Shown here: positions 4,566 through 49,314 of the stretch, piece by piece
Layout: every line of letters starts with the position of its first letter
Position numbering within the stretch: the first letter of the stretch is position 1
DNA from: Gammaproteobacteria bacterium
GTDB taxonomy: Bacteria > Pseudomonadota > Gammaproteobacteria > Burkholderiales > Gallionellaceae
NCBI GenBank assembly: GCA_018820925.1
Contig: JAHJNJ010000007.1
Span: 1-60,680 of the forward strand
Direction of reading: 5' to 3'
DNA: 60,680 nt
Notes under the pieces: model-generated
Database searches by the model: none
The model's input: the letters and a program-made list of their open reading frames with translations, nothing else
What the model was told of the DNA's origin: nothing
Made by a program: the position numbers and the translations under genes

Positions 4566-7500
4566 ATGCGAAATACATTCATCGTAATTTCATTGTTTTT
4601 TATTTCCACCGGTGCCTGGGGTGCAGACGCCGCCGCCGGGGTGACGAACGGTTTTTCCAAAGCCGATTTTCGCAACGAAATCGTCACGCCAAAATTGCAC
4701 AAACTGCTCGGAGTCCATGCGGGGAATCTGTACCTCTCCACAGAGGATGGTGCGGTTGAAGTTGTGGACAAGGAAGGCAAGTCCGTAATGTCGCTGGCGA
4801 CCAGGAAGGGTGACAGTGAATTGCTCAAACGCCCCGAGGCCGTGGCAGTTGCCGATGAAACCGTCTACGTGGTGGACAGCAAACTGGACCAGGTCGTCAT
4901 GTACGACTTGGCCAGCGGAAAATATCTGGGCCGGTTCGGCAGCAAGTCGGGTGGCAGCCTGGGCCGCAGTTTCGCGCTTGACAGCCCGCAGGGCGTCGCT
5001 GTCCATGAGGGGGTGGTTTATGTCGCGGATACCGATAACGAACGGATACAGATGTTCGGTATCAACGGCGTATTGCTGGGCACCTTGACCTTGAGTGCGC
5101 CAAGCTCTGTAAAAGAGAATGTTTACAAGCTGGATGAACCGACAGACATCGCACTGGATGCACAGGGGCGCATCTACGTGCGCGATGCGGGTGACAAATC
5201 GATCAAGGTATATGGCCCGAATGGCGAATATCTGCGTTCCCTGTCCAAGACAGGCAAACCGGTTGCGTTGAGTGTGGCAGAAGACGGTATCTATGTGGCG
5301 GACGAGGCCAGTTTGACGATCCTGAAATACGATTTCGACGCCAATCAGGTATATAGCTTCGGCTCCGAAGGGGAAGGCAAGGCGCAGTTCAGGAATATTT
5401 CCGGTTTGGCGGTGGACAGGGCACAGCAAGTGTATGTCGGCGATGCCAGGAAATTGTTGATCGATGCCTTTGTCGTCGAGGCAGGCAGGTTGCTGGATCC
5501 CGTGCCCAAAGCGCCGGGAAGGGTGTCGGTCAAGTGGTTGCAGAATGTTCCGGGAGAAGCCGCTGCGCTTGCCTGGGATGGTCGTGAAACCATTTATGCG
5601 GTGAGCAAGGACAAGAAATCGCTGTTGGCGATACGCAAAGGCGTGATCGCGTCCGAGATCAGGCTGAACGATATGCAATTGGCCGCAGTGACCGCGGATA
5701 AAGACGGTGCCATTTGGGTGCTGGACAAAAAGGGCTACCGCGGTGCGAAACTGGACGAGAGCGGGAAAGTGCTCCTGAGTTTCGGCAGCGAGGGGAGCGG
5801 TGCCGGTCAATTCAACAATCCGGCCGCGATCGCCGTGTCGTCCTCGGGGATGATATTCGTGGCCGACCGTTCGAACCACAATGTGCAGATATTCCGGGGG
5901 GACGGTGTGTTCCTGAACGCCCTTGGCGGGGAAAACGCAAAGAATATTCGTTCGCCGACCGCAATGGTCCTTGATCAGCAAGACAATTTGTACATACTCG
6001 ACGGTTCGCGCAACAGCGTGTTCGAATACTCCGCGAACGGCCAGTATGTGGACGAAATTGGCAAGACCCGGGACGGTAGCCTGTTGTCCAAACCGGTTTC
6101 GCTGATTGCGGCCAATGACGAGGTCATGGTGCTGGATGGCAACCATGTCAAAGTGCTCTCACCCAAGGGCAAGTTGAAGCGTTCGTTCGGGGCGGAAGGA
6201 TCCGGCGTGGGGGCATTCGACGAACCGGTTGCCATTGCCTATGCCGGGGGCGCCAACTTCATCGTTTCCGATTACGGCAATAAGCGGTTGCAGATATTGG
6301 CGACCCTGTACAAGCCGGATGCGCCGCAACAACTTACGGCACAAAGCAAGGTGCACGCCGTCGAGTTGCATTGGGCCCAGGCAAGTTCCCCCTATATCAA
6401 GCAATACCGTATCTATCGTTCCAGAAATGAAGACAGCGGTTTCATGCAGGTTGGCACGAGTGCGAACACCGAATTCGTGGACCAGGATCTGGATGCCGAA
6501 GTGCGCTACTACTACCGTATCGGCGCAGAAACCCATTTCGAATTCGAGGGGGCCACCAGCGCGGCGGTGAGCGGCGAGCCGACCAAGTTTGTGCCGCCGG
6601 CGCTGACGGATGTGCAGGTGGAGACCACGCCGTGGCAAGTGAAAATGCATTGGACGGCGGTCGATGCAAAGTATTTCGGCGCCTACCGCATTTACGAAAA
6701 AAGCGGCGATACTTACAACAAGATCGGCGAAGTCGCTCAGCCGGAATTCACCAGGGATGCGCTGACGCCGGAGACGAAGTACACCTACTACGTTTCGACA
6801 TTCAGCAGCGACGGCACGGAATCGGAAAAAGTCGCAGTCGAGGCAACCACGCAGATATTCAACCGTCCCCCGTTGGAGATCGACATGGTTCAGTTGCACG
6901 ATGTGTTTTCCAATTCTTACAAGACCTACGAGCGGGAGGGAATCGGCCGGGTCAAACTGACCAACAATTCCAATAAAACCATGGAGCGGATCAAGGTCAC
7001 CTTCCAGTTGAAAGACTTTATGGATTTCCCGACGGAAGCAAGGCTGGACAAGCTGTTGCCGGGAAAGAGCGAGGAAGTCGCGCTCAAGGCCGTGTTCAAC
7101 AACAGCATACTGACGCTCACCGAGGACAGTTCGGTGCAGGCAATGATCGAGGCGAGCTATTTCGAGAACGGCAAACGCGTCACGTACAGCAAAAATCCGA
7201 CCATCAACGTCTATGACAAGCACCGCCTGACCTGGGACGAGCGTGACCGTTTTGCGACCTTTGTGACGCCGAAAGACACACCCATCATCAATCTGGTGCG
7301 ATCAATCGCGACACAGTTCAAAGAGACCAGGGACGAAGCGCAATTGGCTGCCGCCGTGTTCGATGCGCTGGGCGTATATGGCATCACTTACATCCAGGAT
7401 CCGAGCAACCCCTACCAGGTCAGTTCGGGCAAAGTCGATACCGTCGATTACATTCAGTTTCCGCGTGAGACACTGGAGCGCAAATCCGGCGATTGCGACG

Positions 7501-8306
7501 ATCTGGTCGCGTTCTACTCGTCCGCCCTGGAAAGCATGGGGATCGGCACCCGCGTTCTGGAAGTGCCGGGGCACATGTTCATGATGTTTTCCACCGGCAT
7601 CGCAGCCGATGAAGACGACTACACCATGGATCATATGTATGTAATCCATGAGGGACAGTTGTGGATTCCGGTGGAAACCACATTGATCGGCAATACTTTT
7701 GTCAAAGCCTGGGAAAATGGCGCCGCGTCTTACTACAAATGGAAAGACAAAGGATTGTCCGTGCTGGATGTTCATGCAGCCTGGGAGACCTACAAGCCGG
7801 CGAGCCTGCCGGAATCGAATTTGAAACCGGTCGTTATTTCCCGCGCCGAGATCGAGAAAAAATTCCCGGCCGATCACATGTCGGTCTTGAAAATCAGTTC
7901 GCAAACCAAAACCCGGCGCTATCTCAATGCCATCAAGACCAATCCTTCCGATGTCGACGCTCATTTGCAGCTGGGCATCATTCTGGCCAAAGCCGGTGAC
8001 CCCAAGGAAGCGATGAAGTATTTCGACAAGGTGCTCAGCTTGCAGCCCAAGAATGCGGCGGCACTGAACAATCGCGGCAATATCTTCATGATCGAGGATA
8101 AATACCGCGACGCCCAGAAGGCGTATATTGCAGCAACGCAGATCGACCCCAAAGATGCCAATTTGTGGGTAAATCTTGCGCGGGCCTACAAGGCGACCAA
8201 CGATGTGAAGCAAGCAAAGGCCGCCTTTGTTAAAGCCAAGAAACTTGACCCGGCCGTCAAGAACGAACACCGGGCATTGGCGCTGGAACTATTGAATTCG
8301 CTTTAA
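4566..8306 (+). CDS. Exported NHL-propeller / FN3 / transglutaminase-like / TPR protein
   Basis: A 1246-residue protein with a signal peptide cut near residue 20 (Ala-Trp-Gly-Ala-Asp). Residues about 40-580 are repeated six-bladed-propeller (NHL) blades with recurring Phe-Gly-x-x-Gly and Val-Ala-Asp. Two fibronectin-III domains follow at about 585-680 and 685-775. A papain-fold transglutaminase-like domain contains GDCDD (Cys near 976), PGHMF (His near 1002) and a later WIPVETT acidic residue, so a full catalytic triad is plausible. Three TPR units lie at about 1128-1246. The SD is weak (AGGGAC). Substrate and reaction are unknown; cross-linking, peptide cleavage or scaffolding are all possible. 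Confidence 0.8.
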   Translation: MRNTFIVISLFFISTGAWGADAAAGVTNGFSKADFRNEIVTPKLHKLLGVHAGNLYLSTEDGAVEVVDKEGKSVMSLATRKGDSELLKRPEAVAVADETVYVVDSKLDQVVMYDLASGKYLGRFGSKSGGSLGRSFALDSPQGVAVHEGVVYVADTDNERIQMFGINGVLLGTLTLSAPSSVKENVYKLDEPTDIALDAQGRIYVRDAGDKSIKVYGPNGEYLRSLSKTGKPVALSVAEDGIYVADEASLTILKYDFDANQVYSFGSEGEGKAQFRNISGLAVDRAQQVYVGDARKLLIDAFVVEAGRLLDPVPKAPGRVSVKWLQNVPGEAAALAWDGRETIYAVSKDKKSLLAIRKGVIASEIRLNDMQLAAVTADKDGAIWVLDKKGYRGAKLDESGKVLLSFGSEGSGAGQFNNPAAIAVSSSGMIFVADRSNHNVQIFRGDGVFLNALGGENAKNIRSPTAMVLDQQDNLYILDGSRNSVFEYSANGQYVDEIGKTRDGSLLSKPVSLIAANDEVMVLDGNHVKVLSPKGKLKRSFGAEGSGVGAFDEPVAIAYAGGANFIVSDYGNKRLQILATLYKPDAPQQLTAQSKVHAVELHWAQASSPYIKQYRIYRSRNEDSGFMQVGTSANTEFVDQDLDAEVRYYYRIGAETHFEFEGATSAAVSGEPTKFVPPALTDVQVETTPWQVKMHWTAVDAKYFGAYRIYEKSGDTYNKIGEVAQPEFTRDALTPETKYTYYVSTFSSDGTESEKVAVEATTQIFNRPPLEIDMVQLHDVFSNSYKTYEREGIGRVKLTNNSNKTMERIKVTFQLKDFMDFPTEARLDKLLPGKSEEVALKAVFNNSILTLTEDSSVQAMIEASYFENGKRVTYSKNPTINVYDKHRLTWDERDRFATFVTPKDTPIINLVRSIATQFKETRDEAQLAAAVFDALGVYGITYIQDPSNPYQVSSGKVDTVDYIQFPRETLERKSGDCDDLVAFYSSALESMGIGTRVLEVPGHMFMMFSTGIAADEDDYTMDHMYVIHEGQLWIPVETTLIGNTFVKAWENGAASYYKWKDKGLSVLDVHAAWETYKPASLPESNLKPVVISRAEIEKKFPADHMSVLKISSQTKTRRYLNAIKTNPSDVDAHLQLGIILAKAGDPKEAMKYFDKVLSLQPKNAAALNNRGNIFMIEDKYRDAQKAYIAATQIDPKDANLWVNLARAYKATNDVKQAKAAFVKAKKLDPAVKNEHRALALELLNSL

Positions 8307-8355
8307 ATCGGATGAAACGTCGTACCGTGTCGCACAATTAACAGAGGAGATTCTC

Positions 8356-8754
8356 ATGAAAAAACTGATTGCTTTGTTCGTCCTGCTGGGTGTGGTACTT
8401 GCAACGCCTGTGTACAGTGCCGATGAAAAAACGGACGGCAGTTCGTGGTGGGATAGTCTGCGCAGGAAGATCGAATTGCTTACCCCCAGGAAGAAAATCA
8501 CCACCACGACCGCGGTGGGCGGTGTGCGCGGAGCGCAGGCGGAGGCGGACGATGTCTACTGGAAGGACGAAGCCAAGATGCAGCCCATCGATGCCGATGA
8601 ATTGACCGCTTTCAAGAAGGCCGTTTCTTTGGTCGAGGCGGGGGACACGGCAGGTGCGCAGGGCGCGTTTACGGAGTTCCTGAAAAAACATCCCGACAGC
8701 CGCCTGCGTGACGACGCGGAAAAGGCGTTGGCGCTGCTGCAACCCAAGAAGTAA
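8356..8754 (+). CDS. Small exported protein with TPR-like repeat
   Basis: A 132-residue product with a clear signal peptide cut after Val-Tyr-Ser-Ala (near residue 22). The C-terminal half contains one TPR-like helical pair with LVEAGDTAGAQGAFTEFLKK followed by His-Pro-Asp-Ser, of the kind found in tol-pal or outer-membrane assembly accessory proteins. GAGGAG precedes the ATG. It starts 49 bases after the large NHL/TPR gene and probably belongs to the same transcript, which hints at a shared periplasmic job. No enzyme motif is visible. Confidence 0.7.
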   Translation: MKKLIALFVLLGVVLATPVYSADEKTDGSSWWDSLRRKIELLTPRKKITTTTAVGGVRGAQAEADDVYWKDEAKMQPIDADELTAFKKAVSLVEAGDTAGAQGAFTEFLKKHPDSRLRDDAEKALALLQPKK

Positions 8755-8849
8755 TCGCGAGCCCGCACGGGCCGGGCTGGCTGGTGTTCAATCCATCCAG
8801 CCCTTATAATCCGCTCCCTTGCGAAACCGGCTAGTCGTTCATTCTTCCC

Positions 8850-10103
8850 ATGCAGTTATTCACTTTCGGCATCAACCATCAGACCGCGCCGCTCGCCGTG
8901 CGCGAGCAGATCGCGTTCAATGTCGATACGCTGGATTCCGCGCTGCGCGATCTGGTGGGCAAGGGTGCCGCCAAGGAAGCCACGATCCTCTCCACCTGCA
9001 ACCGCACCGAAATCTATTGCAGCACCAATGCCCCTGTTCATGCTGTGGATTGGCTGGCCGATTATCACCATCTCCCTGTGGCCGAGATCGAACCCTATAT
9101 TTACCGTTTGCCGCAGGAACAGGCGGTAAAACACGCTTTCCGCGTCGCCAGCGGGCTGGATTCCATGGTGCTGGGCGAGCCGCAGATATTGGGCCAGATG
9201 AAGCAGGCCGTGCGCCAGGCCGAGCAGGCGGGCACGCTGGGCTTTCTGCTGCACAAGCTGTTCCAGCGCACCTTTTCGGTCGCCAAGGATGTGCGCACGC
9301 AGACCGAGATCGGCGCGAACCTGGTGTCCATGGCCGCCGCCGCCGTCAAACTCGCCGAACGCATTTTTCCCAGTATCGCCGAGCAACGCATCCTGTTCAT
9401 CGGTGCGGGTGAAATGATCGAACTCAATGCGGTGCACTTCGCCGCCCGCAACCCGCAACGCATCACCGTCGCCAACCGCACGCTGGATCGTGCGCAAGTG
9501 CTGGCGCGGCGCATCAATGGCCATGCCATCACGCTAAGCGAACTGCCGGAACAACTGGCACAGCACGACATCATCGTCACCTGCACTGCCAGCTCTTTGC
9601 CGATACTGGGCAAGGGCATGGTCGAGCGCGCATTGAAACAGCGCAAACACCGCCCGCTGTTCATCGTCGATCTGGCCGTGCCGCGCGATGTGGAAAAGGA
9701 AGTCGCGGAGTTGAGCGATGTATTTCTCTACAGCGTGGACGACTTGTCCGACGTGGTGCGCGACGGGCTGGATGCGCGCCAGGGCGCGGTGAAAGAAGCC
9801 GAAGTCATTATCGACTCGGGCGTGAATGAATTCATCCATTGGATGGAATCGCGCGAAGTGGTTCCGGTCATCCGCAGCCTGCGCGACCACGCCGAACGTC
9901 AACGCCGCCATGAAATGGAAAAGGCCCTGCGTTTGTTGGCCAAGGGAGAAGCGCCGGAAAAAGTCCTGGAATCCCTGAGCATGGGGCTCATCAACAAATT
10001 TTTGCATGCACCGACGCAGGCGCTGAACCAGGCGCAAAGCAGCGAGCGCGATGCATTCCTGGAAGCAGTGCATCGTATCTTCCGTCTGCACGACACCGAA
10101 TGA
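8850..10103 (+). CDS. hemA: Glutamyl-tRNA reductase
   Basis: A 417-residue enzyme that reduces glutamyl-tRNA to glutamate-1-semialdehyde, the first committed step of haem synthesis by the C5 route. The catalytic Cys50 is in [11 protein letters not shown], the N-terminal GINHQTAP signature is intact, a Rossmann NADPH domain follows (IGAGEMIEL), and a C-terminal dimerisation helix closes the protein. Length is normal for the family. A perfect -10 box TATAAT lies at 8805-8810, though a good -35 is not obvious. The stop overlaps the prfA start by ATGA, a pairing of hemA and prfA found in many proteobacteria. Confidence 0.97.
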
Positions 10104-11182
10104 AACCGAGTATCTCCACCAAGCTCGCCCAGCTCAGTGAACGGCTGGACGAGATCAACAGCTTGTTGAGCAGCGAAGAGGCGACGCGCGACATGGATGC
10201 GTTTCGCAAGCTCAATCGCGAGCGTGCCGAGATTGAACCGGTGGTCGAGCTTTACCATTCCTACCAATCCTGCGAAGCCGATATTCACACCGCGCAGGAA
10301 ATGGAAAGCGATCCCGAGATGCGCGAATTTGCCGAGGCCGAGATCAAGTCCGGACGCGAGCGTCTGGAACAATTCGAAGTCGAGCTGCAAAAGATGCTGC
10401 TGCCGAAAGACCCCAACGACGAGCGCAACGTCTTTCTCGAAGTGCGCGCCGGCACGGGCGGCGACGAAGCCGCCATTTTTGCGGGCGACATCTTCCGCAT
10501 GTATGTGCGCTTTGCCGAGCGCCGCCGCTGGCAGGTCGAGATCATCTCCGAAAGCCCCGGCGAAATGGGCGGCTACAAGGAAGTCATCGCGCGCATCATC
10601 GGGCAGGGCGCCTATTCGGTGCTGAAATTCGAATCCGGCGCGCACCGCGTGCAGCGCGTGCCCACCACCGAGACGCAAGGCCGTGTCCACACTTCCGCCT
10701 GCACCGTCGCCATCCTGCCGGAAGCCGACGAAGTCGGGGAAGTCGAACTCAATCCGGCCGACCTGCGCATCGACACCTTCCGCGCGTCCGGCGCGGGCGG
10801 CCAGCACATCAACAAAACCGACTCGGCCGTGCGCATCACCCACCTGCCCACCGGCACCGTGGTCGAATGCCAGGACGGGCGCTCGCAACACCAGAACAAG
10901 GCGCAGGCCATGCGCGTGCTGGCGGCACGCATCAAGGACAAACAGGAACAGGCCGCGAACAGCAAAGTTGCCGCCGAGCGCAAATCCCTGGTCGGCAGCG
11001 GCGACCGTTCCGAACGCATCCGCACCTACAATTTTCCGCAAGGCCGCGTCACCGACCACCGCATCAACCTCACGCTGTACAAGATGGACCAGATCATGGA
11101 CGGCGACATCAGCGAACTCACCAACGCGTTGATGGCGGAACATCAAGCCGAGCAACTCGCTTCGCTCTCGGGCGAAGGCTGA
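10100..11182 (+). CDS. prfA: Peptide chain release factor 1
   Basis: A 360-residue class I release factor that reads UAA and UAG. The GGQ motif (Gly-Ala-Gly-Gly-Gln-His) lies near residues 233-235 and catalyses peptidyl-tRNA hydrolysis. The codon-reading tripeptide is Pro-Thr-Thr in RVPTTETQG, the PxT form that marks RF1 rather than the Ser-Pro-Phe of RF2. The ATG overlaps the hemA stop, so translation is probably coupled. The gene that methylates its GGQ glutamine, prmC, follows after 132 bases. Confidence 0.97.
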
Positions 11183-13846: not shown

Positions 13847-14890
13847 ATGCCGGAGATACGCAGTATAAATCAAAACAATCAGCCCAAGCTGCTGCCCGAC
13901 TTCCGCAATCTGGGCACCGTGTTGCGTATTGTGCTGCTGGTGAACGGCATTGCCCTGCTCGGGGCGTTGTCACAGGCCACTTCTTTTGCGGGCTTGCAGA
14001 ATAGTCTGCTGCAAGGCTCCGTGCTGCTGCAACCCGCCCTCTTAACCAGTCTGCTGCTGTTATACGCACTTAACCCTTTCCTGATGAGAGTGCCATATTG
14101 GCAAGGCGGTGTGGCCGTGGTCGCGGCAGTGACGGCAATCACAATAATGCTCGATGAACTCGGCGGAAATTTGCTCTTTGAACTGGATGGCGCGGGCGTG
14201 TTCCGCTATACGCGGCATGCTTTGGTGGGTATCGCCATCTCGCTGATATTGCTGGCATACTTCCGGTTGCGTATCCAGTCGCTGTCCCCCGCGAAACACG
14301 AGGCGCGGCTGCAGGCGCTGCAGGCGCGCATCCGCCCGCATTTCTTGTTCAACACCATCAATGCCGTGCTGAGCATCGTGCGTGCCGACCCCAAGCGGGC
14401 GGAGACTGCGCTGGAAGATATGGCGGACTTGTTTCGCATGGCGATGTCCGAGTCGCATGAAATGGTTGAGTTGGCCAAGGAAGTGGCACTGGCGCGGCAA
14501 TATCTGGGACTCGAGGCGTTGCGCCTGGGAGAGCGGCTTCAGGTTCACTGGGATACGCAGAACATGCCGACGGACGCGCTCATTCCTCCGTTGATATTGC
14601 AGCCGCTGTTGGAGAATGCCGTTTATCACGGTATTGAGCCGCTACCCCAAGGGGGAATTATAGGTGTGCAGTTATATGTGGATAAAGACGAATTGCATCT
14701 GAAAGTGAGCAACCCGGCACAAGCGCATACCGAAGCGCACGCCAACGGCAACAAAATGGCGCTTTCCAATATTCGCGAAAGGCTGGCTTTGCTATTTGAT
14801 GTCGAAGCGCAGTATCAGGTTGAGAGTGATGCGAACCAGTATCAGGTACATATCATTGTTCCCTATGTCGTAAAAGGGCAGACAACATGA
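13847..14890 (+). CDS. algZ: LytS/AlgZ-type membrane histidine kinase
   Basis: A 347-residue sensor with four predicted membrane helices (about 24-45, 62-80, 86-102 and 120-142) and a His_kinase domain of the LytS/AlgZ/FimS class. The phospho-accepting His lies in [14 protein letters not shown] near residue 165; the HATPase N-box region has [14 protein letters not shown]. It lacks a large periplasmic sensor. GAAAGG precedes the ATG. The stop overlaps the response regulator start by ATGA. The symbol rests on family and on the argH neighbour, as in Pseudomonas; alginate itself is not implied. Confidence 0.85.
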
Positions 14891-15651
14891 ACGACACGAT
14901 AACCTTGCCCCTCAATGTATTCATCGTCGATGACGAGCCTCCCGCACGCAATCGTCTCAAGGAGCTGTTGGCCGATTGTGCCCTCCAGTTTCCGTTGCAA
15001 CTGGTGGGCGAAGCGGCCAATGGTCAGGAAGCGCTGGACAAACTCGCCGAGACGCCGGCCGAGGTCGTGCTGATGGATATACGCATGCCGCAAATGGACG
15101 GCATCGAGCTTGCCCGCCACCTGAACCGGCTCGAGCATCCACCCGTTATCATTTTCACCACTGCCTATGATGCCTACGCCATACAGGCATTCGAGCAGCA
15201 CGCCATCGACTACCTGCTCAAGCCGATCCGGTTGGGGCGCCTGTTCGACGCGCTTTCGCGGGCGCGCGATGCCGTGCCGATCCGTACCGAAGTGCTGCAG
15301 GAGTTGACCCCCGAGCCGCGCGGCAACCTTTCCACCCACGAACGCGGTAGAGTGCTGCTGATACCCATTGAGCAGGTACTTTACTTGCGGGCCGAATTGA
15401 AATACGTCACCGTGCGGACTGCGGAGCGCGAATACCTCATTGAGGAATCGCTCACCGCACTGGAAAAAGAATACGCAACCCGCTTTGTGCGCATTCATCG
15501 CAATTGCCTCGTGGCAAAAAATGCCATCGCCGGATTTGAAAAAGGCGGGGAAGAAGGCGAGAGCGGCTGGCTGATGAAGTTGAAAGGGCTGGACGAAAAA
15601 CTGCCGATCAGCCGCAGGCAACTATCTGTCGTTAAGGAACAAGGAAAATAA
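14887..15651 (+). CDS. algR: LytTR-family response regulator
   Basis: A 254-residue DNA-binding regulator. The receiver domain has the acidic pair in FIVDDEPPAR, the phosphorylated Asp64 in VLMDIRMPQMDG and Lys in LLKPIRLGRL. The C-terminal LytTR domain (about 150-250) has RFVRIHRNCLVAK and ends in the usual ISRRQL. It is translationally coupled to the kinase by ATGA and should be phosphorylated by it. In pseudomonads the homologue controls alginate, pili and virulence; the target genes here are unknown. Confidence 0.88.
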   Translation: MNDTITLPLNVFIVDDEPPARNRLKELLADCALQFPLQLVGEAANGQEALDKLAETPAEVVLMDIRMPQMDGIELARHLNRLEHPPVIIFTTAYDAYAIQAFEQHAIDYLLKPIRLGRLFDALSRARDAVPIRTEVLQELTPEPRGNLSTHERGRVLLIPIEQVLYLRAELKYVTVRTAEREYLIEESLTALEKEYATRFVRIHRNCLVAKNAIAGFEKGGEEGESGWLMKLKGLDEKLPISRRQLSVVKEQGK

Positions 15652-15655
15652 TCCG

Positions 15656-16348
15656 ATGCGCGTACTAATTATTGAAGACAACCGGGATCTGGCATCCAAT
15701 ATGTTCGACTTCCTGGAAGCCAAGGGACATGTGGTGGATGCGGCGGGTGACGGCATTACCGGCATGCATCTGGCGCTGGTCAACCAATATGATGCGATTG
15801 TGCTCGATCTGACCCTGCCGGGAATGGACGGTATTACGTTGTGCCGCAAGCTGCGCGAAGAGGGCGGCAAGGACACACCGATCCTGATGGTTACGGCACG
15901 CGATTCGCTGGACGACAAAATCGCCGGACTGGAAGCGGGGGCGGACGATTACCTGGTCAAACCTGCCGAACTGCGCGAGATTGAGCTGCGTTTGCGCGTG
16001 CTGTTCCGGCGCAGCGGTGAATACACGCAAAAACAGAAGAAGATGGTGATCGACGACCTCACGCTTGATACCAATACTTGCTCGGTGCGGCGCGGAGACA
16101 AGGTGATTGAATTGCCGCCCATTCCCTACAAGATACTTGAAACGCTCATGTCGCGTTCGCCGCAGGTGGTGAACCGCGAGGATATTGAGCAAGTGGTGTG
16201 GGGTGAAGGGCGGCCGGATAGCGACTCGCTGCGCGCGCACGTGCATCTGCTCAGAGACCTCATCGATAAGCCGTTCCCGCGGAAATTGCTGCGCACGATG
16301 CGCGGATTCGGTTATCAACTGGTCAGCCCGGATGTTCCCGACCAATAG
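15656..16348 (+). CDS. OmpR/PhoB-family response regulator
   Basis: A 230-residue regulator starting 4 bases after the LytTR regulator. The receiver has Glu-Asp at residues 7-8, the phosphorylated Asp51 in IVLDLTLPG and Lys in DYLVKPAEL. The C-terminal winged helix (about 130-225) ends in LLRTMRGFGYQLV, the classic recognition-wing pattern. The kinase gene begins inside its end (17-base overlap), so the pair is co-translated. The inducing signal and targets cannot be read from sequence. Having two complete two-component systems back to back suggests a shared transcript. Confidence 0.92.
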   Translation: MRVLIIEDNRDLASNMFDFLEAKGHVVDAAGDGITGMHLALVNQYDAIVLDLTLPGMDGITLCRKLREEGGKDTPILMVTARDSLDDKIAGLEAGADDYLVKPAELREIELRLRVLFRRSGEYTQKQKKMVIDDLTLDTNTCSVRRGDKVIELPPIPYKILETLMSRSPQVVNREDIEQVVWGEGRPDSDSLRAHVHLLRDLIDKPFPRKLLRTMRGFGYQLVSPDVPDQ

Positions 16349-17633
16349 CCTGCGCTACCGCGTTGCCTTTTATTACGCCCTGTTCGGGGCGGGACTCAGT
16401 ATTCTGCTTTCCACGGGCGTTTACCTGACCATACAGGAGATTGGCCACCGGCTCATGGATCAGATATTGGTGGGGGAGTTGTTCGAGCATGCCAGCGAAG
16501 ATGTGTTTGTGCCGCCGAACATCAAATCCATCAGGGGCTATATTCTCTCCAAGGCGCAAACCAGCAATAACATTCCTCCCGAAATCATCAAGCTCCAGCC
16601 GGGAAAGTACAACGTTCACATCGGCAAGGCCGACTACCGAACCCTGGTTGCCGATGTGGGGGATGCGCGCTATTTCATGCTGTTCAATTCGGTGAGCCAG
16701 CATTATCAGGAAGCGGTTTTCTTAAACTACATGGTGTATTTCGCCATATTCATGATTATCAGTTCGTCTATCGGCGGAGTATTGCTGGCGAAGCGCGTCA
16801 CCGCATCGGTGTCCCGTCTGGCCAGGCAGGTTGGTCAGGCAAGGCCGGGCGATACTGAACTGTCCCTGGTCGAATTGACCAGCAACGATGAAGTTGGGGA
16901 ACTGGCGCGCGCATTTGATCGCTATCTCAGCCGCTTGCGAAAATTCATCGAACGGGAGAATTACTTCACAGCAGACGTGAGCCATGAATTGCGTACACCG
17001 CTGGCCATTGTGCTGGGGACAGTCGAAGTGCTGGAGCAGGACGACACGCTTTCAGAAAAACAACAGGAGCGCCTCGCGCGCATCCGGCGCGCCGCACAGG
17101 ATATGATCGACCTGACGGCGGCCTTGTTGCTGATGGCGCGGGAGCGCCAGAACGATACGGAAGAGCAACCTTGTAATGTTGCCGAAGTGGCGCTTGCCTG
17201 TATCGAAAAACACCGCCACTTGATCGGTGATCGCCCGATTCGCATGGAAGTGGAATTGGCGGCAGATCCGGATCTGGTAGTCGAACGCCCGCTGCTTGAG
17301 ATCGTCATCGGCAACCTGATCCGAAATGCGCTGTTCAACACCAAGTCCGGTGTCGTCACGTTCCGGCTCGAAGCCACACGTCTTGTGGTTCGGGATACCG
17401 GTGTCGGGATGCGACCGGAGGAATTGGCCCGGGCACTCGAACGCTATTACAAGGGCGCATCCAGCGCCGGGGCGGGCGTTGGCCTGTCGCTGGTGAAACG
17501 AATCTGCGACCGTTACGGTTGGCGCATCTCTCTGGAAAGTCAGGAAGGCCGGGGCACAATGGCGGAGATCGATTTTTCCGAGCGCCGGAGCACGAGCCGC
17601 ACTTTTGCCAACGAAAGTGAAGTAGACCAGTAA
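16332..17633 (+). CDS. Sensor histidine kinase (HAMP-HisKA-HATPase)
   Basis: A 433-residue partner of the OmpR-type regulator. It has a membrane helix at about 12-34, a roughly 95-residue periplasmic domain, a second helix at about 132-153, HAMP (155-205), HisKA with the phospho-accepting His218 in ADVSHELRTPLAI, and HATPase with N-box (IGNLIRNALFNT) and G-boxes (VRDTGVGM, AGVGLSLVKRI). The start at 16332 gives a proper N-terminal membrane helix and overlaps the regulator by 17 bases. A longer upstream reading in the same frame overlaps the regulator by 160 bases and is implausible. Confidence 0.92.
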   Translation: MFPTNSLRYRVAFYYALFGAGLSILLSTGVYLTIQEIGHRLMDQILVGELFEHASEDVFVPPNIKSIRGYILSKAQTSNNIPPEIIKLQPGKYNVHIGKADYRTLVADVGDARYFMLFNSVSQHYQEAVFLNYMVYFAIFMIISSSIGGVLLAKRVTASVSRLARQVGQARPGDTELSLVELTSNDEVGELARAFDRYLSRLRKFIERENYFTADVSHELRTPLAIVLGTVEVLEQDDTLSEKQQERLARIRRAAQDMIDLTAALLLMARERQNDTEEQPCNVAEVALACIEKHRHLIGDRPIRMEVELAADPDLVVERPLLEIVIGNLIRNALFNTKSGVVTFRLEATRLVVRDTGVGMRPEELARALERYYKGASSAGAGVGLSLVKRICDRYGWRISLESQEGRGTMAEIDFSERRSTSRTFANESEVDQ

Positions 17634-18242
17634 CGGTCAAGACGATTGGCCGCCCACTCATGCGGGCCGCAAAAACATAGACTGAATATTCCAGCCGCAT
17701 CTGGACTCTGAAGCAGATTTTCAGGGCAATTTCATTATTGATGGTTCATCCGGCTCTTGCGTGGGTAAAGACCAGATTAGTCAGCAGTTCGAAAACCATA
17801 GCATCTCGCTGAGTGTACCCCCACCCATCAACAGGTAAGCAGCAGGTTTTGCATGTTGAGACGTTGCATTGAGCCTGACGCACACTTCCCAATCGGGTGG
17901 CGCATGGGACGAAGTTGGCGGTACAGTGGCGGCAGGCAAGGATGCCAGCACCCTGCTGCTGGAAGCGTTGTTTTAATGTTGTAGCAGACTTTCGAACCCG
18001 TGGTGGTTTGCTGAAAAAGTTCAGGTTTCCGGTTCTCTGCAGAACAGACAGTGTTGCAGAGAATCGGGGAACCATGGCCGATCCATCACATAACGGAGCA
18101 TCATGACAGCACAAATAGGGGGGGAGACTTCGATCTGGCCTTTCAACACATAGTCATGCTGTGTGGTGGAATACAGGGAGCGGTCTCCTCGTTTTGGGTT
18201 CGCGAGGTTTGATCAGTCGCGGAAACCCTTGGGAGGTTCACC
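17634..18242 (+). other. Gene-poor stretch upstream of the cytochrome locus
   Basis: This stretch of about 600 bases has no convincing gene. A 122-codon frame on the minus strand (17746-18114) is Cys-rich but has no SD, no recognisable family and unnatural composition. The only structure seen is the hairpin element at 18121-18190. The last 15 bases hold the SD of the first cytochrome gene. Confidence 0.6.
18121..18190 (+). other. Structured element A (GGGGAGAC...GTCTCC), 5' of the cytochrome locus
   Basis: GGGGAGACTTCG opens the element and GCGGTCTCC closes it; GGAGAC at 18123-18128 pairs with GTCTCC at 18183-18188. An inner hairpin ACACA/TGTGT holds a 9-base loop. A second element with the same ends and length lies at 24764-24834, past the other end of the cytochrome locus. 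It could be an RNA leader structure, an attenuator or a repeat. It lies 53 bases before the first cytochrome start. Confidence 0.45.
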
Positions 18243-18938
18243 ATGAAGTGTAAATATAATTTTGAGTACATGCAGATGCGTGCATTGTTTGCATTATTCG
18301 GCATGCTATTCATGTCGCCAATTTACGCCGAAGCCATGCCGCCAAACGCAGCTGCCGCATCGGAAGTTGCGGCGACACCGGAAGCGCCTGCGGTTGCCCT
18401 TTCGCCTTTTGAAGAACGGCTGCAACTGTGCGCCGGCTGTCATAACCCGGACGGCAATAGCATCATTCCCGAAAATCCGAAACTGGCCGGTCTGGATAAA
18501 AAATACATTCGCCGTCAGTTGGAGGCCTTCAAGGGTGGGGATCGGACAAATCCAACCATGAGTTCCATCATCACGATGGTCGATCCGAAGGAATTCGAGG
18601 ATTTGGCAGACTTTTTCAGCAAGCAGAAACGTACGGTCGGCACTTCCGACAAGGCCGACCTGCTGGGGCAGGGCAGACAGGTATTCGAAGAAGGCGTCAT
18701 TGGAACCGGCGCCCCGGCCTGCATGGGCTGTCACGGAGAAGACGGCAGCGGCGATGCCAAATTTCCGCGCTTGAATGGTCAGAATGCGCAGTACGTCGTC
18801 AATCAACTGATGAATTTCAAGAGCGGAACACGCGCCAACGATGCCAAGGGCCTGATGCGGGCCGTGGCCAAGCGCCTGAACGAACAGGAAATGGCAGCCG
18901 TGGCCGAGTACATGTCAACCTTGAAGGAAGCCGAATAA
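18243..18938 (+). CDS. Diheme c-type cytochrome, copy A1
   Basis: A 231-residue exported cytochrome of the c4-like type with two haem sites, CAGCH (Cys63-His67) and CMGCH (Cys159-His163). The N-terminus has a signal-like hydrophobic stretch ending Ile-Tyr-Ala-Glu and an Ala/Glu/Pro-rich linker before the first haem domain. GGGAGG precedes the ATG. The stop TAA shares its last A with the next gene's ATG (TAATG), so A1 and B1 are coupled. It is a paralogue of the product at 21547-22296, with a near-identical last 50 residues. Likely a periplasmic electron shuttle. Confidence 0.9.
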   Translation: MKCKYNFEYMQMRALFALFGMLFMSPIYAEAMPPNAAAASEVAATPEAPAVALSPFEERLQLCAGCHNPDGNSIIPENPKLAGLDKKYIRRQLEAFKGGDRTNPTMSSIITMVDPKEFEDLADFFSKQKRTVGTSDKADLLGQGRQVFEEGVIGTGAPACMGCHGEDGSGDAKFPRLNGQNAQYVVNQLMNFKSGTRANDAKGLMRAVAKRLNEQEMAAVAEYMSTLKEAE

Positions 18939-19642
18939 TGAAAACCATTCTCTCTGCAGTAATTGTCCTGCTGTTTGGATTGCAGGCAACCGTGGCGCAA
19001 GCGGCCGACGCATACGTTCCCAAGGTCTACGGCAAAAAAGGCTATGTATGGGATGAGATGACACCGGAACGCGTCCAGGTCCTGAAACAAAAAGGAGATC
19101 CGGTGAACGGCAAGGAAGCCTTTCGCGGCTGCCAGGGTTGCCACAAGGCCGACGCGGCGGGTGTGCGTGAAGGCGTATATCCGCGCCTGACCGGCCAGCA
19201 TGCCAGCGTACTGATCAAACAGATCACCGAGATCCGCGCGGGCATCCGCAAGAACCCGAAGATGCTGCCCTTCGTGCAGGACCCGGCGATCTCCGTGCAG
19301 GAAATCGGCGACATCGCCGAGTACTTATCCACACTGACCTCGTACCGCGAGAACGGCAAAGGCCCGGAAGACCTGTCGGCCAAAGGCGAAAAACTGTTCA
19401 TGACCAACAAGTGCTACACCTGCCACGGCAAGCACGGCGAAGGCAACGCGGAGAAATCCTACCCGGCGGTTGCGGCCCAGCACTACGGCTACCTGATACG
19501 CGAAATGAACCTGATCCGGACCGGCGTGCGCGGCAACTCCAACCCGGACATGGTCAAGGCCATCGCCAAGTTCAAGCAGAGCGACATGGATGCCGTGGCC
19601 GACTACCTGTCGCGCTTGCCCGATTACCGGACGCTTCACTAA
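18938..19642 (+). CDS. Diheme c-type cytochrome, copy B1
   Basis: A 234-residue exported protein with a signal peptide cut after Ala-Gln-Ala-Ala (near 23). It has two cytochrome c domains with haem sites CQGCH (Cys65-His69) and CYTCH (Cys159-His163). It differs from the copy at 22296-23051 at only about ten of 230 aligned positions, so the duplication is recent or has been homogenised. It is probably a periplasmic partner of A1 in passing electrons between the outer-membrane porin-cytochrome and the inner membrane. Confidence 0.92.
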   Translation: MKTILSAVIVLLFGLQATVAQAADAYVPKVYGKKGYVWDEMTPERVQVLKQKGDPVNGKEAFRGCQGCHKADAAGVREGVYPRLTGQHASVLIKQITEIRAGIRKNPKMLPFVQDPAISVQEIGDIAEYLSTLTSYRENGKGPEDLSAKGEKLFMTNKCYTCHGKHGEGNAEKSYPAVAAQHYGYLIREMNLIRTGVRGNSNPDMVKAIAKFKQSDMDAVADYLSRLPDYRTLH

Positions 19643-20127
19643 AGCGCATGAACGGGCAATGGCGGCGGTCGTTGCCCGACAGCCGAAAAATGTGAAGAAG
19701 CTTTCAGCCGCATGCCATGATTAATGCAGATGGATGCAATCCTGTTGAATTTTGCTTCACCGCAAAACCATAATCACGGCAACCCGGCAACATCCCTCAC
19801 TTCAAACACCAATCGAACGCAGAATGACAGGTGCATAAATCCTCATTCAATCGAGGTATGTGCCATGCCAGCCCGCCACAGTTCAATCTCTGCACTCCAT
19901 ATATATGCATGCAAATGCCCGACAAACGTCGGCATACGAATGGTGTTGCAGAAAATGCAATTTAACGAACATTTAACATTCCGTTGACAAGGCCTTGACG
20001 AATCAATTGCTAGGATTGCCCCCAACTTGTGCAAGCTGTCGTGAGTACCCCAATGCACAAGCACGATTTTGCAGCAGGGGGAGAAGGCAATAAACAATTC
20101 GTCAAGTTATTAATAGGGGATATAACA
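19643..20127 (+). other. Intergenic region with hairpins before the porin-cytochrome gene
   Basis: No gene is seen in 485 bases. A hairpin CGGGCAA/TTGCCCG spans 19653-19678 just after B1, and a related one follows B2 at 23064-23089; neither has a T run. A small hairpin CCGAC/GTCGG lies at about 19916-19934. AT-rich sequence with two TTTAAC repeats and TTGACA (19984-19989) suggests a promoter for the next gene, but the spacing to TAGGAT at 20011 is 21 bases, too long to be sure. The SD AGGGGA is at 20115-20120. Confidence 0.5.
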
Positions 20128-21444
20128 ATGAAGAAAATCGTACTTTCACTTGCAAGCGTGTTGGCAGCAACCGCATTTGCACCCGAAGCATCCGCCATTC
20201 CGGCGTTTGCCCGTCAAACCAACCAGGCATGCACTGCTTGCCACATGCAACACTTTCCCGTGTTGAACTCAACCGGCCAGGAGTTCAAGGCCGGCGGTTA
20301 TACCCAGATGGGCACCAAGGGAAAAATCAAGGGTGATGACATTTCCATTCCTGACCAACTGAATGCCGCAGTTCTGATCAAGGCTCGCTATCAAAAGTCC
20401 AACGGTGACTCTTCCGGCACCATTTCCGGTACGACCACCGACAGCGGCCAATGGCAGATTCCCGATGAGTTGAGCTTGTTCTTCGGCGGCCGCGTTGCTG
20501 AAGGCGAGAAGATCAAAATCGGCATGATGATGGAAAACAACCTGGTTGGCGGTCCGATAGCCGGCATCATTGCGGGGATGAAAGTGCCGGTCGTGGTTGC
20601 GCTGGATCCGGTGAATGTTATGGTGATCCCTTACCTTACAGACGGCTTGGGTGCGGCGTATGGTTACGAGCAGTCCAGTACCGGTACAACACGTGGTATT
20701 CGTTGGGCTGAAAATCGCAAGGAAATATCGGCGGCGCAATACACCGGTGTGGGTGCGGGTGCTGCTTCCGGCATCGCCTTGGTTGTGCATAGCGACTTCG
20801 GCTACGTCAACCTGAGCCGTTGGTCTCCTAACTTTGCCTATGCGGGCGGTACAGGTGGTGTGCAGATGAGTTCCACCTGGTTGCGTGTTGCTGCAACGCC
20901 GACTATTGCCGACTGGGGGTTGCATATCGCTTACGGTGTTGCTAGTGGTTCCAACTACTGCAACGACGTCACCCAAGGGGCTGCTGCAACGCCTGTTGAT
21001 ACCGACAAGTGCGATACCAAGGGTAGTGTGTTCGATGTGCAAGCCCAAGGTGCAATCGCCGACATGGAAACCAGCTTTTACTTCCAGACTTCGAAATCTC
21101 CGAAGAGCAGTTCTGCTGTGACAAAAGATATTAACGGAAATATTACAGCTTTCAACGGAGCAAATTCGTTCAATTCTTCGACTGCAAACGATCTGAAAGC
21201 GACCACCATCGGTGCCGATGTTAGTGTGATTCCACATACCCTGCATGTGGGTGCTGCGTATCGCAAAGGTACCAAGTCCAATGCGACTGCAGACAAGGAT
21301 GACGCAATCACCCTGACTGCAGTGTATGACCTGTTCCAGAACGTTGCCTTGCATGCCAACTACAGCAAGTATTCCGGTCCTGCATATGATGCTCCTGGTG
21401 CCAGCAACTCGCTGCTGACAATGATGCTGGAAGCAGCGTGGTAA
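20128..21444 (+). CDS. Cyc2-like outer-membrane monohaem cytochrome-porin fusion
   Basis: A 438-residue protein with a signal peptide cut near Ala-Ser-Ala (about 23), then FARQTNQACTACHMQHFP with one haem site CTACH, then Leu-Asn-x-x-Gly and Phe-Lys-x-x-Gly-Tyr. The rest alternates polar and hydrophobic residues as in a beta barrel and ends in Trp, as outer-membrane proteins do. This is the layout of Cyc2 iron oxidases: one haem plugged into a 16-strand porin. However, the block after the haem (MQHFPVLN) differs from classic Cyc2 (usually Pro-Glu-Leu-Thr-Pro-Phe-Gly), so it may be a sister clade. It would pass electrons across the outer membrane. Confidence 0.8.
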   Translation: MKKIVLSLASVLAATAFAPEASAIPAFARQTNQACTACHMQHFPVLNSTGQEFKAGGYTQMGTKGKIKGDDISIPDQLNAAVLIKARYQKSNGDSSGTISGTTTDSGQWQIPDELSLFFGGRVAEGEKIKIGMMMENNLVGGPIAGIIAGMKVPVVVALDPVNVMVIPYLTDGLGAAYGYEQSSTGTTRGIRWAENRKEISAAQYTGVGAGAASGIALVVHSDFGYVNLSRWSPNFAYAGGTGGVQMSSTWLRVAATPTIADWGLHIAYGVASGSNYCNDVTQGAAATPVDTDKCDTKGSVFDVQAQGAIADMETSFYFQTSKSPKSSSAVTKDINGNITAFNGANSFNSSTANDLKATTIGADVSVIPHTLHVGAAYRKGTKSNATADKDDAITLTAVYDLFQNVALHANYSKYSGPAYDAPGASNSLLTMMLEAAW

Positions 21445-21473
21445 TAATAAAAACAGTATAACAATAAAAATTC

Positions 21474-21498
21474 GGAAGGCCGCAAGGCCTTCCATTTT
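21474..21498 (+). terminator. Terminator after the porin-cytochrome gene
   Basis: GGAAGGCC at 21474-21481 pairs perfectly with GGCCTTCC at 21486-21493 around GCAA, followed by ATTTT. The T run is short, so read-through into the next cytochrome genes is possible. Confidence 0.7.
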
Positions 21499-21546
21499 GA
21501 CTTTGCGCGGCAATGCCCGTTGCGCGGAATCAATAGGGGGATCACC

Positions 21547-22296
21547 ATGAAACACAAAACTAATTCCAACGGCTTGCAGGTGTGCACATTTATTGCGCTC
21601 ATCTGCGTGCTGTTTATGTCGGCGGCTCACGCCGAGACCATGCAGTCAAATGAGGCTGCTGCTTCGGAAGTTGCGGCAGCGCCGACTCCCGAGGCCGCCG
21701 CATCGGAAGTTGCGGCGACACCAGAGGCAACAGCCCCGGAAGCGCCTGCGGTTGCACTTTCACCTTTTGAAGAACGGCTGCAACTATGCGCCGGCTGTCA
21801 CAACCCGGACGGCAACAGCATCATTCCGGAGAACCCACGGCTGGCCGGTCTGGATAAAAAATATATTCTCATTCAGCTTCGGGATTTCAAAAGTGGTGAC
21901 CGGACAAATGCAACCATGAGCGCCATCATCCAGATGGTCGATGAAAAGGAATTCGAGGACCTGGCAAAATATTTCAGCGGCCAAAAACGCCAGATCAGCG
22001 TGTCTGAAAAGCCGGAACTGGTTGAGCAGGGCAAACAGATCTTCGAAGAAGGCGTGATCGGTTCTGCGGCTCCTGCCTGCATGGGCTGTCACGGCGAAGA
22101 CGGCAGCGGCGATGCCAAATTTCCGCGCCTGCAGGGACAGAACGCGCAGTACGTCGTCAACCAATTGACGAACTTCAAGAGCGGCGAGCGCGCCAACGAT
22201 GCCAAAGGCCTGATGCGTGCCGTGGCCAAGCGTTTGAACGAGCAGGAAATGGCGGCCGTGGCCGAGTACATGTCAACCTTGAAGGAAGCCGAATAA
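21547..22296 (+). CDS. Diheme c-type cytochrome, copy A2
   Basis: A 249-residue paralogue of A1, with haem sites CAGCH and CMGCH. The signal peptide ends near Ala-His-Ala-Glu. The linker before the first haem is longer than in A1 and contains two copies of an Ala-Ala-Ser-Glu-Val-Ala-Ala unit. The first haem domain and the middle differ clearly from A1, while the last 50 residues are almost identical. GGGGG precedes the ATG at 21547; an earlier in-frame ATG at 21520 lacks an SD. The stop overlaps the B2 start (TAATG). Confidence 0.9.
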   Translation: MKHKTNSNGLQVCTFIALICVLFMSAAHAETMQSNEAAASEVAAAPTPEAAASEVAATPEATAPEAPAVALSPFEERLQLCAGCHNPDGNSIIPENPRLAGLDKKYILIQLRDFKSGDRTNATMSAIIQMVDEKEFEDLAKYFSGQKRQISVSEKPELVEQGKQIFEEGVIGSAAPACMGCHGEDGSGDAKFPRLQGQNAQYVVNQLTNFKSGERANDAKGLMRAVAKRLNEQEMAAVAEYMSTLKEAE

Positions 22297-23051
22297 TGAA
22301 AACAATACTCTCTACAGTAATTGTCCTGCTGTTTGGATTGCAGGCAGCCGTGGCGGAAGCGGCCGACGCATACGTCCCCAAGGTTTACGGAAAAAAAGGC
22401 TATGTATGGGATGAGATGACGCCGGAACGAGTCCAGGTCCTGAAACAAAAAGGAGACCCGGTGAACGGCAAGGAAGCCTTTCGCGGCTGCCAGGGTTGCC
22501 ACAAGTCCGACGCGGCAGGTGTGCGCGAAGGCGTATATCCGCGCCTGAGCGGCCAGCACGCCAGCGTGCTGATCAAGCAGATCACCGAGATCCGCGCGGG
22601 CATTCGCAAGAACCCGAAAATGCTGCCCTTCGTGCAGGACCCGGCGATTTCCGTGCAGGAGATCGGCGACATCGCCGAATACTTGTCCACGCTGACCTCG
22701 TACCGCGAGAACGGCAAAGGCCCGGAAGACCTGTCGGCCAAAGGTGAAAAACTGTTCATGACCAACAAGTGCTACACCTGCCACGGCAAGCACGGCGAAG
22801 GCAATGCGGAGAAATCCTACCCCGTTGTCGCGGCCCAGCACTACGGCTACCTGATACGCGAAATGAACCTGATCCGGACCGGCGTGCGCGGCAACTCCAA
22901 CCCGGACATGGTCAAGGCGATTTCCGGGTTCAAGCAAAGCGATATGGATGCGGTTGCAGACTACCTGTCGCGTCTGCCCGATTACCGGACTGTCAATGCC
23001 ACGCCGAATCCGGCGTTGGTCGTTCCGGAATCATCGTCGGCAGCAAAGTAA
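22296..23051 (+). CDS. Diheme c-type cytochrome, copy B2
   Basis: A 251-residue near-twin of B1, with haem sites CQGCH and CYTCH. The signal peptide is the same apart from a few residues. It ends with about 17 extra residues (Thr-Pro-Asn-Pro-Ala-Leu-Val and on) that B1 lacks, because the B1 reading frame stops after Thr-Leu-His. A strong hairpin with 11-base arms, CGGGTAACGGC/GCCGTTGCCCG, follows at 23064-23089. Being coupled to A2, it repeats the A1-B1 arrangement on the far side of the porin gene. Confidence 0.92.
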   Translation: MKTILSTVIVLLFGLQAAVAEAADAYVPKVYGKKGYVWDEMTPERVQVLKQKGDPVNGKEAFRGCQGCHKSDAAGVREGVYPRLSGQHASVLIKQITEIRAGIRKNPKMLPFVQDPAISVQEIGDIAEYLSTLTSYRENGKGPEDLSAKGEKLFMTNKCYTCHGKHGEGNAEKSYPVVAAQHYGYLIREMNLIRTGVRGNSNPDMVKAISGFKQSDMDAVADYLSRLPDYRTVNATPNPALVVPESSSAAK

Positions 23052-23128
23052 TTTCTGAAGTATCGGGTAACGGCCACCGCCGTTGCCCGCTGTTGACATT
23101 TGTTATGCAAAACATAAGGGGAAGCTCC

Positions 23129-23755
23129 GTGAAAAAAGGATGCAACAGATACTTCGCACTTGCGTGTTCCGCACTGTTCGGTCTGTACTTATCGAATGCG
23201 GCATTTGCGGCCGATGTGGCAAAACTCGTCGAGCCTTGCTTCTCCTGCCACGGCAAGAACGGAAACAGCGCCGATCCCGATGTCCCCAATATCGCCAGTT
23301 ATTCCGAGGACTATCTCACCAAGACGCTGAAACGCTATCAGGACAAGGAAAGACCGTGTATCGAAACGGAAATCCGCTCCGGCAGCAAAAAAGGCACCAA
23401 AACCGACATGTGCAAAATCGCCGCCGCGTTGAGCGAGGACGACATTGACCAGATCGGGGGATTCTTCGTAGCGCAGACCTTTGAGCGCACACCGCAGGCG
23501 TTCGATGCGGGACTGGCGGAAAAAGGCAAATCAATCCACAACAAGCGCTGCTATACCTGTCACAGCGAAGGCGGCAGCGAGCCGAGCGACCATGCCGGCA
23601 TTCTGGCCGGACAGAAAATGGCTTACCTCCGACAGCAAATCAAATTCTTCAGGGAAGGCAAGCGCCCCATGAACAAGAAAATGAAGCCGAAGCTGGAAGC
23701 GACGGACGATAGCGAGATAGAAGCCGTCATTAATTACTACGGAAGTTTCAAGTAA
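23129..23755 (+). CDS. Diheme c-type cytochrome (third type, locus C)
   Basis: A 208-residue exported cytochrome c with haem sites CFSCH (Cys37-His41) and CYTCH (Cys141-His145). The GTG at 23129 follows AAGGGGAAG, and it places the signal peptide correctly (cut after Ala-Phe-Ala-Ala). It also has two extra Cys in Arg-Pro-Cys-Ile and Asp-Met-Cys-Lys that may form a disulphide. It resembles the sulphide-dehydrogenase-associated or c4-like class I cytochromes, but the family is not certain. The tetraheme gene follows 26 bases later. Confidence 0.85.
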   Translation: MKKGCNRYFALACSALFGLYLSNAAFAADVAKLVEPCFSCHGKNGNSADPDVPNIASYSEDYLTKTLKRYQDKERPCIETEIRSGSKKGTKTDMCKIAAALSEDDIDQIGGFFVAQTFERTPQAFDAGLAEKGKSIHNKRCYTCHSEGGSEPSDHAGILAGQKMAYLRQQIKFFREGKRPMNKKMKPKLEATDDSEIEAVINYYGSFK

Positions 23756-23781
23756 AACTGTAACTTGTGGATCGAGCTGCG

Positions 23782-24360
23782 ATGTCCAAAAGAAACTGGT
23801 GGCAAGTATTGCGCAGCCCGACGGCGCACTATTCCCTGCTCACGCTGCTGAGTGTTGGATTTATTGCGGGGATTATTTTCTGGGGCGGCTTCAACACCGG
23901 GATGGAAGCGACCAACCGGCTCGAGTTCTGCATTTCCTGCCACGAGATGCGCGATACCGTGTATCAGGAATACAAGAAATCCGTGCATTACACCAACCGC
24001 ACTGGCGTGCGCGCCATCTGCTCGGACTGCCATGTGCCCAAAGACTGGATGCACAAAATGCAGCGCAAGATCCAGGCGAGTGCCGAACTGTGGGGCAAGC
24101 TGACCGGAACCATCGATACCAAAGAGAAATTCGAGGCCAAACGCCTGGCACTGGCACAAAGCGAATGGGCGCGCATGAAAGCGTCGGACTCGCGCGAATG
24201 CCGCAACTGCCACAGCTACGAGGGCATGAATGCGGCGATCCAGGACGAGACGGCACAGGCAAAACATGCCCAGGCCGCAAAACCCGATTCCGGCAAGACC
24301 TGTATCGATTGCCACAAGGGAATCACCCATGAACTTCCGGAAGGTATGGAAGGGCTGTAA
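23782..24360 (+). CDS. NapC/NirT/CymA-type tetraheme quinol dehydrogenase
   Basis: A 192-residue inner-membrane protein. One N-terminal helix (17-36) anchors a periplasmic domain with four haem sites: CISCH (50-54), CSDCH (80-84), CRNCH (140-144) and CIDCH (174-178). The [11 protein letters not shown] block and the VHY and SDCH spacing are typical of NapC/NirT. It exchanges electrons between the quinol pool and periplasmic cytochromes. The ATG at 23782 is preferred over a GTG five codons upstream. It is the last gene of the cluster and a paralogue of the product at 48708-49307. Confidence 0.93.
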   Translation: MSKRNWWQVLRSPTAHYSLLTLLSVGFIAGIIFWGGFNTGMEATNRLEFCISCHEMRDTVYQEYKKSVHYTNRTGVRAICSDCHVPKDWMHKMQRKIQASAELWGKLTGTIDTKEKFEAKRLALAQSEWARMKASDSRECRNCHSYEGMNAAIQDETAQAKHAQAAKPDSGKTCIDCHKGITHELPEGMEGL

Positions 24361-49307: not shown

Positions 49308-49314
49308 GGTTATC

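Follow-up and report, generated by a model that had tools for sequence, protein, structure and literature searches.

A cyc2 locus with duplicated diheme cytochromes and a NapC-type gene in a Gallionellaceae genome: a probable conduit for electrons from Fe(II)

By what route do electrons leave Cyc2, the iron-oxidising porin-cytochrome? In iron oxidisers of neutral pH the question is open, and a paper of 2025 describes the evidence on the periplasmic and inner-membrane parts of the pathway as limited (PMC12442390; the papers cited here by PMC number are represented by portions of their text). It is raised anew by a contig of the Gallionellaceae (GenBank assembly GCA_018820925.1, contig JAHJNJ010000007.1, positions 1 to 60,680 of the forward strand; this whole stretch of 60,680 nucleotides is called the window). 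Between positions 18243 and 24360 lie seven genes, all on the + strand: a pair of diheme cytochromes (A1-B1), cyc2, a second such pair (A2-B2), a further diheme cytochrome (C) and a tetraheme protein of the NapC type. The locus probably specifies a conduit for Fe(II) oxidation, in which Cyc2 would deliver electrons to c4-type carriers and these to the oxidase and bc1 complex and, via C and NapC, to quinone. By linkage and co-occurrence it offers four candidate partners for Cyc2.

The gene content can be read directly. A scripted count of CXXCH motifs in gene order gave 2, 2, 1, 2, 2, 2 and 4, a total of 15, which confirms the seven same-direction genes and 15 haem motifs of a preliminary description made from the sequence. 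A1 (18243..18938, +) and A2 (21547..22296, +) encode diheme cytochromes c4, A2 matching cytochrome c4 6q2u (phmmer, E 1.7e-38). It also matches 1h1o (E 1.2e-28), which we take to be the cytochrome c4 of A. ferrooxidans. B1 (18938..19642, +) and B2 (22296..23051, +) encode diheme c4-like proteins, with B2 matching 6q2u at E 3.8e-16. C (23105..23755, +) shows similarity to the flavocytochrome c haem subunit (FccA; phmmer to 1fcd_C, E 5.5e-25) and to PdsA. The last gene (23782..24360, +) encodes a NapC/NirT protein of the ImoA/CymA type (Pfam PF03264, E 9e-76), predicted to act on quinone in the inner membrane. Pfam finds cytochrome c domains in A1 (Cytochrom_C), B1, A2, B2 and C and nothing above cut-off in the product of cyc2 (20128..21444, +), a monohaem cytochrome fused to a predicted outer-membrane porin.

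Judged by consensus, tree and chromosomal position, this porin is a Cyc2, a known family; what is new is the set of modules attached to it. The published consensus (Keffer et al. 2021, PMC8406198) has AXPXFAR[Q/K][T/Y] ahead of the only CXXCH and, at a distance of four residues behind this, PXL, and a minimum length of at least 365 aa is a further published criterion that we applied. The window porin (P0001), 438 aa long, agrees: it reads AIPAFARQT...CTACH-MQHF-PVL, with three residues between AIPAFARQT and CXXCH, where the wording of that paper is '5 amino acids upstream'. The preliminary description had rightly recorded a single CTACH, 438 residues and a terminal aromatic residue (it is W), but it took the MQHFPVLN after the haem for a departure from classic Cyc2. 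That was mistaken, as CTACH-MQHF-PVL is the published consensus itself. Full length and a haem motif are found in 90 of the 95 Cyc2 matches (the other five are short or lack the motif), and 66 of these 90 show both motifs in their strict form. A tree was built of 90 rows (the window and 89 matches, one duplicate having been removed); in it the window porin falls inside an 82-row clade (support 95/94) together with each of the three Cyc2 proteins of Sideroxydans lithotrophicus ES-1. That clade consists of family members and one sequence from elsewhere in the order; the tree carries no PV-1 or Acidithiobacillus sequences that would mark the published clusters (Cluster 1). A novel porin-cytochrome outside Cyc2 is thus ruled out by consensus, tree and position.

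An outer-membrane barrel of 16 strands is among the criteria for Cyc2; in this porin the barrel is a matter of prediction. At the strictest cut-off the family profile of the porin has 10 amphipathic alternating stretches, compared with 2.8 +/- 1.5 after shuffling, and at the loosest 13 compared with 11.5; it exceeds the shuffles at two of three cut-offs, with the hydrophobicity values of W and Y raised by hand. The N-terminus looks by eye like a signal peptide. A search of PDB sequences for a solved Cyc2-like structure gave 11 matches at E 0.42-0.45, all of them MauG.

The position of the gene agrees. Genomes, contigs and loci are cited below by our own G, C and L numbers. Genome G028 is that of ES-1, because the gaps in its cyc2 triplet (604 and 437 bp) equal the published ES-1 values (PMC8788666) and its ImoA has the published N-terminus, NNKTG, and residues H74, K101, H167 and H186 (PMC13390432). 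The window and ES-1 share lytS, lytR, a response regulator and a histidine kinase upstream of cyc2 and, downstream, ppc, hemC and hemD, which in the window follow the NapC gene. The window thus comes from a species of the ES-1 genus, and its cyc2 lies at the orthologous site. ES-1 (Slit_0263-0265) and Mariprofundus PV-1 have the same consensus porin-cytochrome fusion. At this site, however, ES-1 has three cyc2 genes and no match to A, B, C or NapC, whereas the window has one cyc2, the remnant of another and six further cytochrome genes.

Why should dihemes lie on both sides of the porin? The preliminary description saw cyc2 as bracketed by duplicated diheme cytochromes. The duplication is real: A1-B1 and A2-B2 are 88% identical in DNA over 1297 bp, and the encoded proteins share 96% identity for B and 82% for A. 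The bracketing, however, is not a design feature but what remains of a cyc2-A-B array. Ahead of A1, at 17860..17976 (+), are the final 38 codons and stop of a second gene, cyc2b, with 66% identity to residues 421-458 of the 458 in Cyc2b of G020 (tblastn, E 1.6e-11). By blastn the remnant is 78% identical to G020 cyc2b over 78 nt and 84% identical to ES-1 cyc2_2 over 43 nt. In G020, whose Cyc2 is nearest to that of the window (74%), the genes run kinase, cyc2b, A, B, then after about 3 kb cyc2a, A, B and ppc, and cyc2b is intact. On the simplest reading, the window array would be a tandem duplication of cyc2-A-B cassettes minus one cyc2, and C-NapC lies in this cluster too; dihemes would then flank the porin because the upstream cyc2b was lost while its A-B pair stayed. 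The remnant and the G020 arrangement rule out A1-B1 as an independent flanking unit. Within the window, and likewise within G020, the two A-B pairs are more alike than are pairs between the genomes, and therefore either the duplications were separate or conversion has homogenised the pairs. Pairwise dN/dS of the duplicates is low, about 0.07 for B and about 0.17 for A, which is what maintained genes give, although conversion could contribute.

Does the A-B pair accompany Cyc2 elsewhere? Among 158 genomes of the family, a close form (B at no less than 75% identity) occurs in nine: G000, G003, G006, G010, G013, G016, G020, G027 and G030. These carry 12 close pairs, and the gene ahead is an intact cyc2 in 10, the cyc2 remnant in one and mtoA-mtoB in one (G030, where A-B lies about 0.8 kb behind; L145, C9, 9035-15029, - strand; MtoB PF11854, E 1.1e-85). 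The Cyc2 proteins that precede A-B occupy four places in the Cyc2 tree; hence the A-B pair persists while the oxidase turns over. Beyond the family, 12 loci from the order were compared (L089, L104-L109, L149-L153), and a c4-like gene adjoins a Cyc2-like gene in five of them (L104, L106, L108, L109 and L149).

The C-NapC pair follows much the same distribution. A close NapC, defined as at least 78% identity by a threshold set after the hits were seen, is present in 11 of the 158 genomes: all nine with close A-B, together with G007 and G066. It lies beside C in 11 of 11, so that the pair occurs in 9/9 genomes with close A-B and 2/149 others. G007 is 73% complete and has no Cyc2 match, and its ppc is almost identical to that of G027. 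The window NapC is 73% identical to the product of the ES-1 ImoA gene and has four haems, a CISCHEM motif (CXXCHXM) and conserved residues at the positions aligned with ImoA H74, K101, H167 and H186, including the distal His and the quinone-site Lys. In a tree of 17 sequences it joins other C-associated NapCs in the sister group to ImoA (support 86/87 and 89/91). C scores 135 bits against the NCBIfam model for PdsA (NF049874), below the cut-off of 330, which rules it out as a true PdsA; distant homologues of C (42-53%) occur in G025, G020, G016, G010 and G002 and on C46 of G000.

A tree of ppc, covering 31 of the 34 genomes of the genus (G022 and G029 had no match, and in G031 the gene is in pieces), bears on how the modules came to be shared. 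The nine genomes with close A-B do not form one clade: nested among them are G025 (support 97/93) and, less firmly (86/74 and 85/83), the ES-1 group, all without close forms of either module. The pattern points to joint losses of A-B and C-NapC, as read from one gene tree with few events and modest support for the ES-1 group. G025 and ES-1 thus offer a natural comparison. For a test of complementary distribution, ircABCD was sought in ES-1; the 30 kb examined held no diheme.

How, then, might the electrons run? Dissolved Fe(II) would give up an electron to Cyc2 in the outer membrane, and the electron would pass through the barrel to the single haem. Cytochrome c4 (A) and the c4-like B would carry electrons across the periplasm, mainly to a terminal oxidase and the bc1 complex, and C with the ImoA-type NapC in the inner membrane would link these periplasmic carriers to the quinone pool. 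The likeliest use of this link would be the reduction of ubiquinone by a share of the electrons from Fe(II), for reverse electron transport; ES-1 has ubiquinone genes and none for menaquinone (PMC13390432). The surface-to-quinone locus of the preliminary description, unlike MtoAB or PioAB, stands as the best reading, and its partner modules co-occur across genomes. Its direction, which that description left open, is less so now, because both the family of the porin and its site are shared with known oxidisers of Fe(II); even so, we only infer it.

Several observations weigh against such a conduit. The step from Cyc2 to an ImoA-like quinone protein is its weakest link: Cyc2 of PV-1 oxidises Fe(II) and has a potential of +208 mV (PMC8406198), and it would be a poor donor to ImoA-type NapC, at 0 to -400 mV (PMC13390432), without an uphill step. 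Either, therefore, C and NapC have higher potentials here, or electrons in this branch flow in the opposite sense. ES-1, which has no close A, B or C, nevertheless uses cyc2 to oxidise Fe(II), and the modules are therefore not essential to Cyc2 function. Distant A-B pairs (B at 48-60%) in G023, G010, G003 and G103 have no cyc2 within the 13-19 kb fetched, and their neighbours in G023 look like housekeeping genes; hence the link to a conduit holds for the close form only. An MtoA homologue is also present in four of the nine genomes with close A-B (G003, G010, G020 and G030). The nine genomes come from one half of one genus, and kinship inflates the co-occurrence, so that its Fisher value is not a true probability; the choice of the NapC threshold after the fact counts on the same side. 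Finally, AlphaFold2 did not resolve the barrel (mean pLDDT 35, with 4 sequences).

Also to be counted here is the separation of C-NapC from cyc2 in six of the nine genomes (G006, G013, G016, G020, G027 and G030), which would suit a different account: Cyc2 and A-B would be the whole iron pathway, leading to the oxidase and bc1 only, and C-NapC a general quinol-to-periplasm module that came by chance to lie between B2 and ppc and works for a different reductase. The low potentials of NapC-type proteins favour it, as does a related C-NapC pair beside a heptahaem protein on C46 of G000. But in the window the genes share a strand and lie close together, as in a putative operon, with about 53 bp between B2 and C and about 26 bp between C and NapC, C-NapC lies within the cyc2 cluster in three genomes (G000, G003 and G010) whose Cyc2 proteins belong to two different subclades, and chance placement sits poorly with the near restriction of the pair to genomes with close A-B. 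We consider this account unlikely, though it is the stronger of the two rivals. The heptahaem arrangement deserves a word of its own. In L138 (G000 C46:11500-26247), at 6760-10640 on the - strand, the C-NapC pair is followed by a protein of 755-802 aa with weak MtrC-like domains, an arrangement repeated on C32 of G010 (L136); the set is possibly another quinone-linked redox module.

The other rival turns the conduit around: NapC would oxidise quinol, and the electrons would go by way of C, A/B and Cyc2 to an acceptor outside the cell; or the whole would act as a redox valve. On published potentials that order is downhill, and ImoA, whose partner PmcA has a low potential, is an oxidiser of quinol that can stand in for CymA in Shewanella (PMC13390432). 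The published activity of Cyc2, however, is the oxidation of Fe(II) (PMC8406198), and export seems to us very improbable.

The two modules might be portable adaptors, A-B docking to any outer-membrane conduit (Cyc2, or MtoAB in G030) and C-NapC providing direct entry to ubiquinone. We advance this tentatively, rating it a little below an even call. Were it true, a single gene cluster of the window would encode the whole Fe(II)-to-quinone pathway of an organism with Cyc2, an arrangement of which we have met no description. The locus makes the quinone branch directly testable. The window genome has one Cyc2 and no match to MtoA (E 1e-15; the query was the first 232 residues of ES-1 MtoA, in place of a PF22678 family-model proxy run on two genomes); the search did not extend to further conduits such as PCC3.

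The locus has partial parallels. In the rus operon of Acidithiobacillus ferrooxidans (cyc2-cyc1-cup-coxBACD-rus), a cytochrome c4 (Cyc1) follows cyc2 and leads to the oxidase (PMC10654088), and in the window as well the gene next after cyc2 encodes a c4-type diheme (A2). Unlike that operon, the window lacks cup, coxBACD and rusticyanin and has instead the c4-like B2, the FccA/PdsA-like diheme and NapC, then ppc. A pyrite-oxidising Bradyrhizobium (He et al. 2017, PMC5566968) has cyc2 clustered with a high-potential iron-sulphur protein (HiPIP) and three periplasmic cytochromes c. Compared by description only, that cluster resembles the window in its several periplasmic cytochromes, including homologues of Cyc1 and CycA1, and differs in that the portion of the paper at hand names no NapC-type protein. 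The same paper, which has the nearest statements that we found in print, also reports a Gallionellaceae mto operon with genes for two small cytochromes of the periplasm and for a fusion of cytochromes b and c behind it. A further parallel is the Mto pathway of ES-1 (MtoA, MtoB, MtoD, PmcA, ImoA), which likewise joins a conduit in the outer membrane to a shuttle in the periplasm and a tetraheme quinone protein of the ImoA type. Here, by contrast, the conduit is Cyc2, the cluster has no decahaem protein, and NapC groups (with moderate support) with the C-associated NapCs rather than with ImoA. In the literature available in part we found neither a Gallionellaceae cluster of the form cyc2-c4-c4-diheme-NapC described nor an A-B pair placed after mtoAB; supplementary figures could show more.

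Upstream of the remnant, 13847-17633 (+) holds LytS and LytR and, as a second pair, an OmpR-type regulator and its kinase. The response regulator (15656..16348, +; Pfam Response_reg and Trans_reg_C), a candidate regulator of the locus, has as its top NCBIfam match the heavy-metal CztR/SilR/CopR type, below cut-off; its partner (16338..17633, +) is a sensor histidine kinase (HisKA, HATPase_c, HAMP) in a conserved position. This regulator and kinase pair precedes cyc2 in 12 of 33 loci compared, and the cyc2 genes of ES-1 are reported to be preceded by transcriptional regulators (PMC8788666). The gap of about 485 bp ahead of cyc2 (19643-20127) is 70% identical over 216 bp to the region before G010 cyc2 and is a candidate for a conserved promoter or leader. 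Directly 3' of cyc2, a consensus scan finds a terminator-like hairpin (21474..21493, +), which could possibly reduce read-through into A2; that scan was near chance (13 sites, shuffle mean 10.4, the class not significant), as was a promoter scan.

Elsewhere in the window, a second NapC paralogue (48708-49307, +) is 66% identical to that of the cyc2 locus and lies nearer ES-1 ImoA in the tree. It adjoins a TatB-like gene and open reading frames (ORFs) apparently for molybdenum cofactor (49258-55652; by eye moaA, moeB, moaC, moaD/E, mob, moeA and mog). Further on, a ferredoxin-reductase-like ORF and a membrane ORF (55835-57832, by eye) precede a gene (57739-58584, +) for a 281-aa octahaem cytochrome resembling c3/c7.

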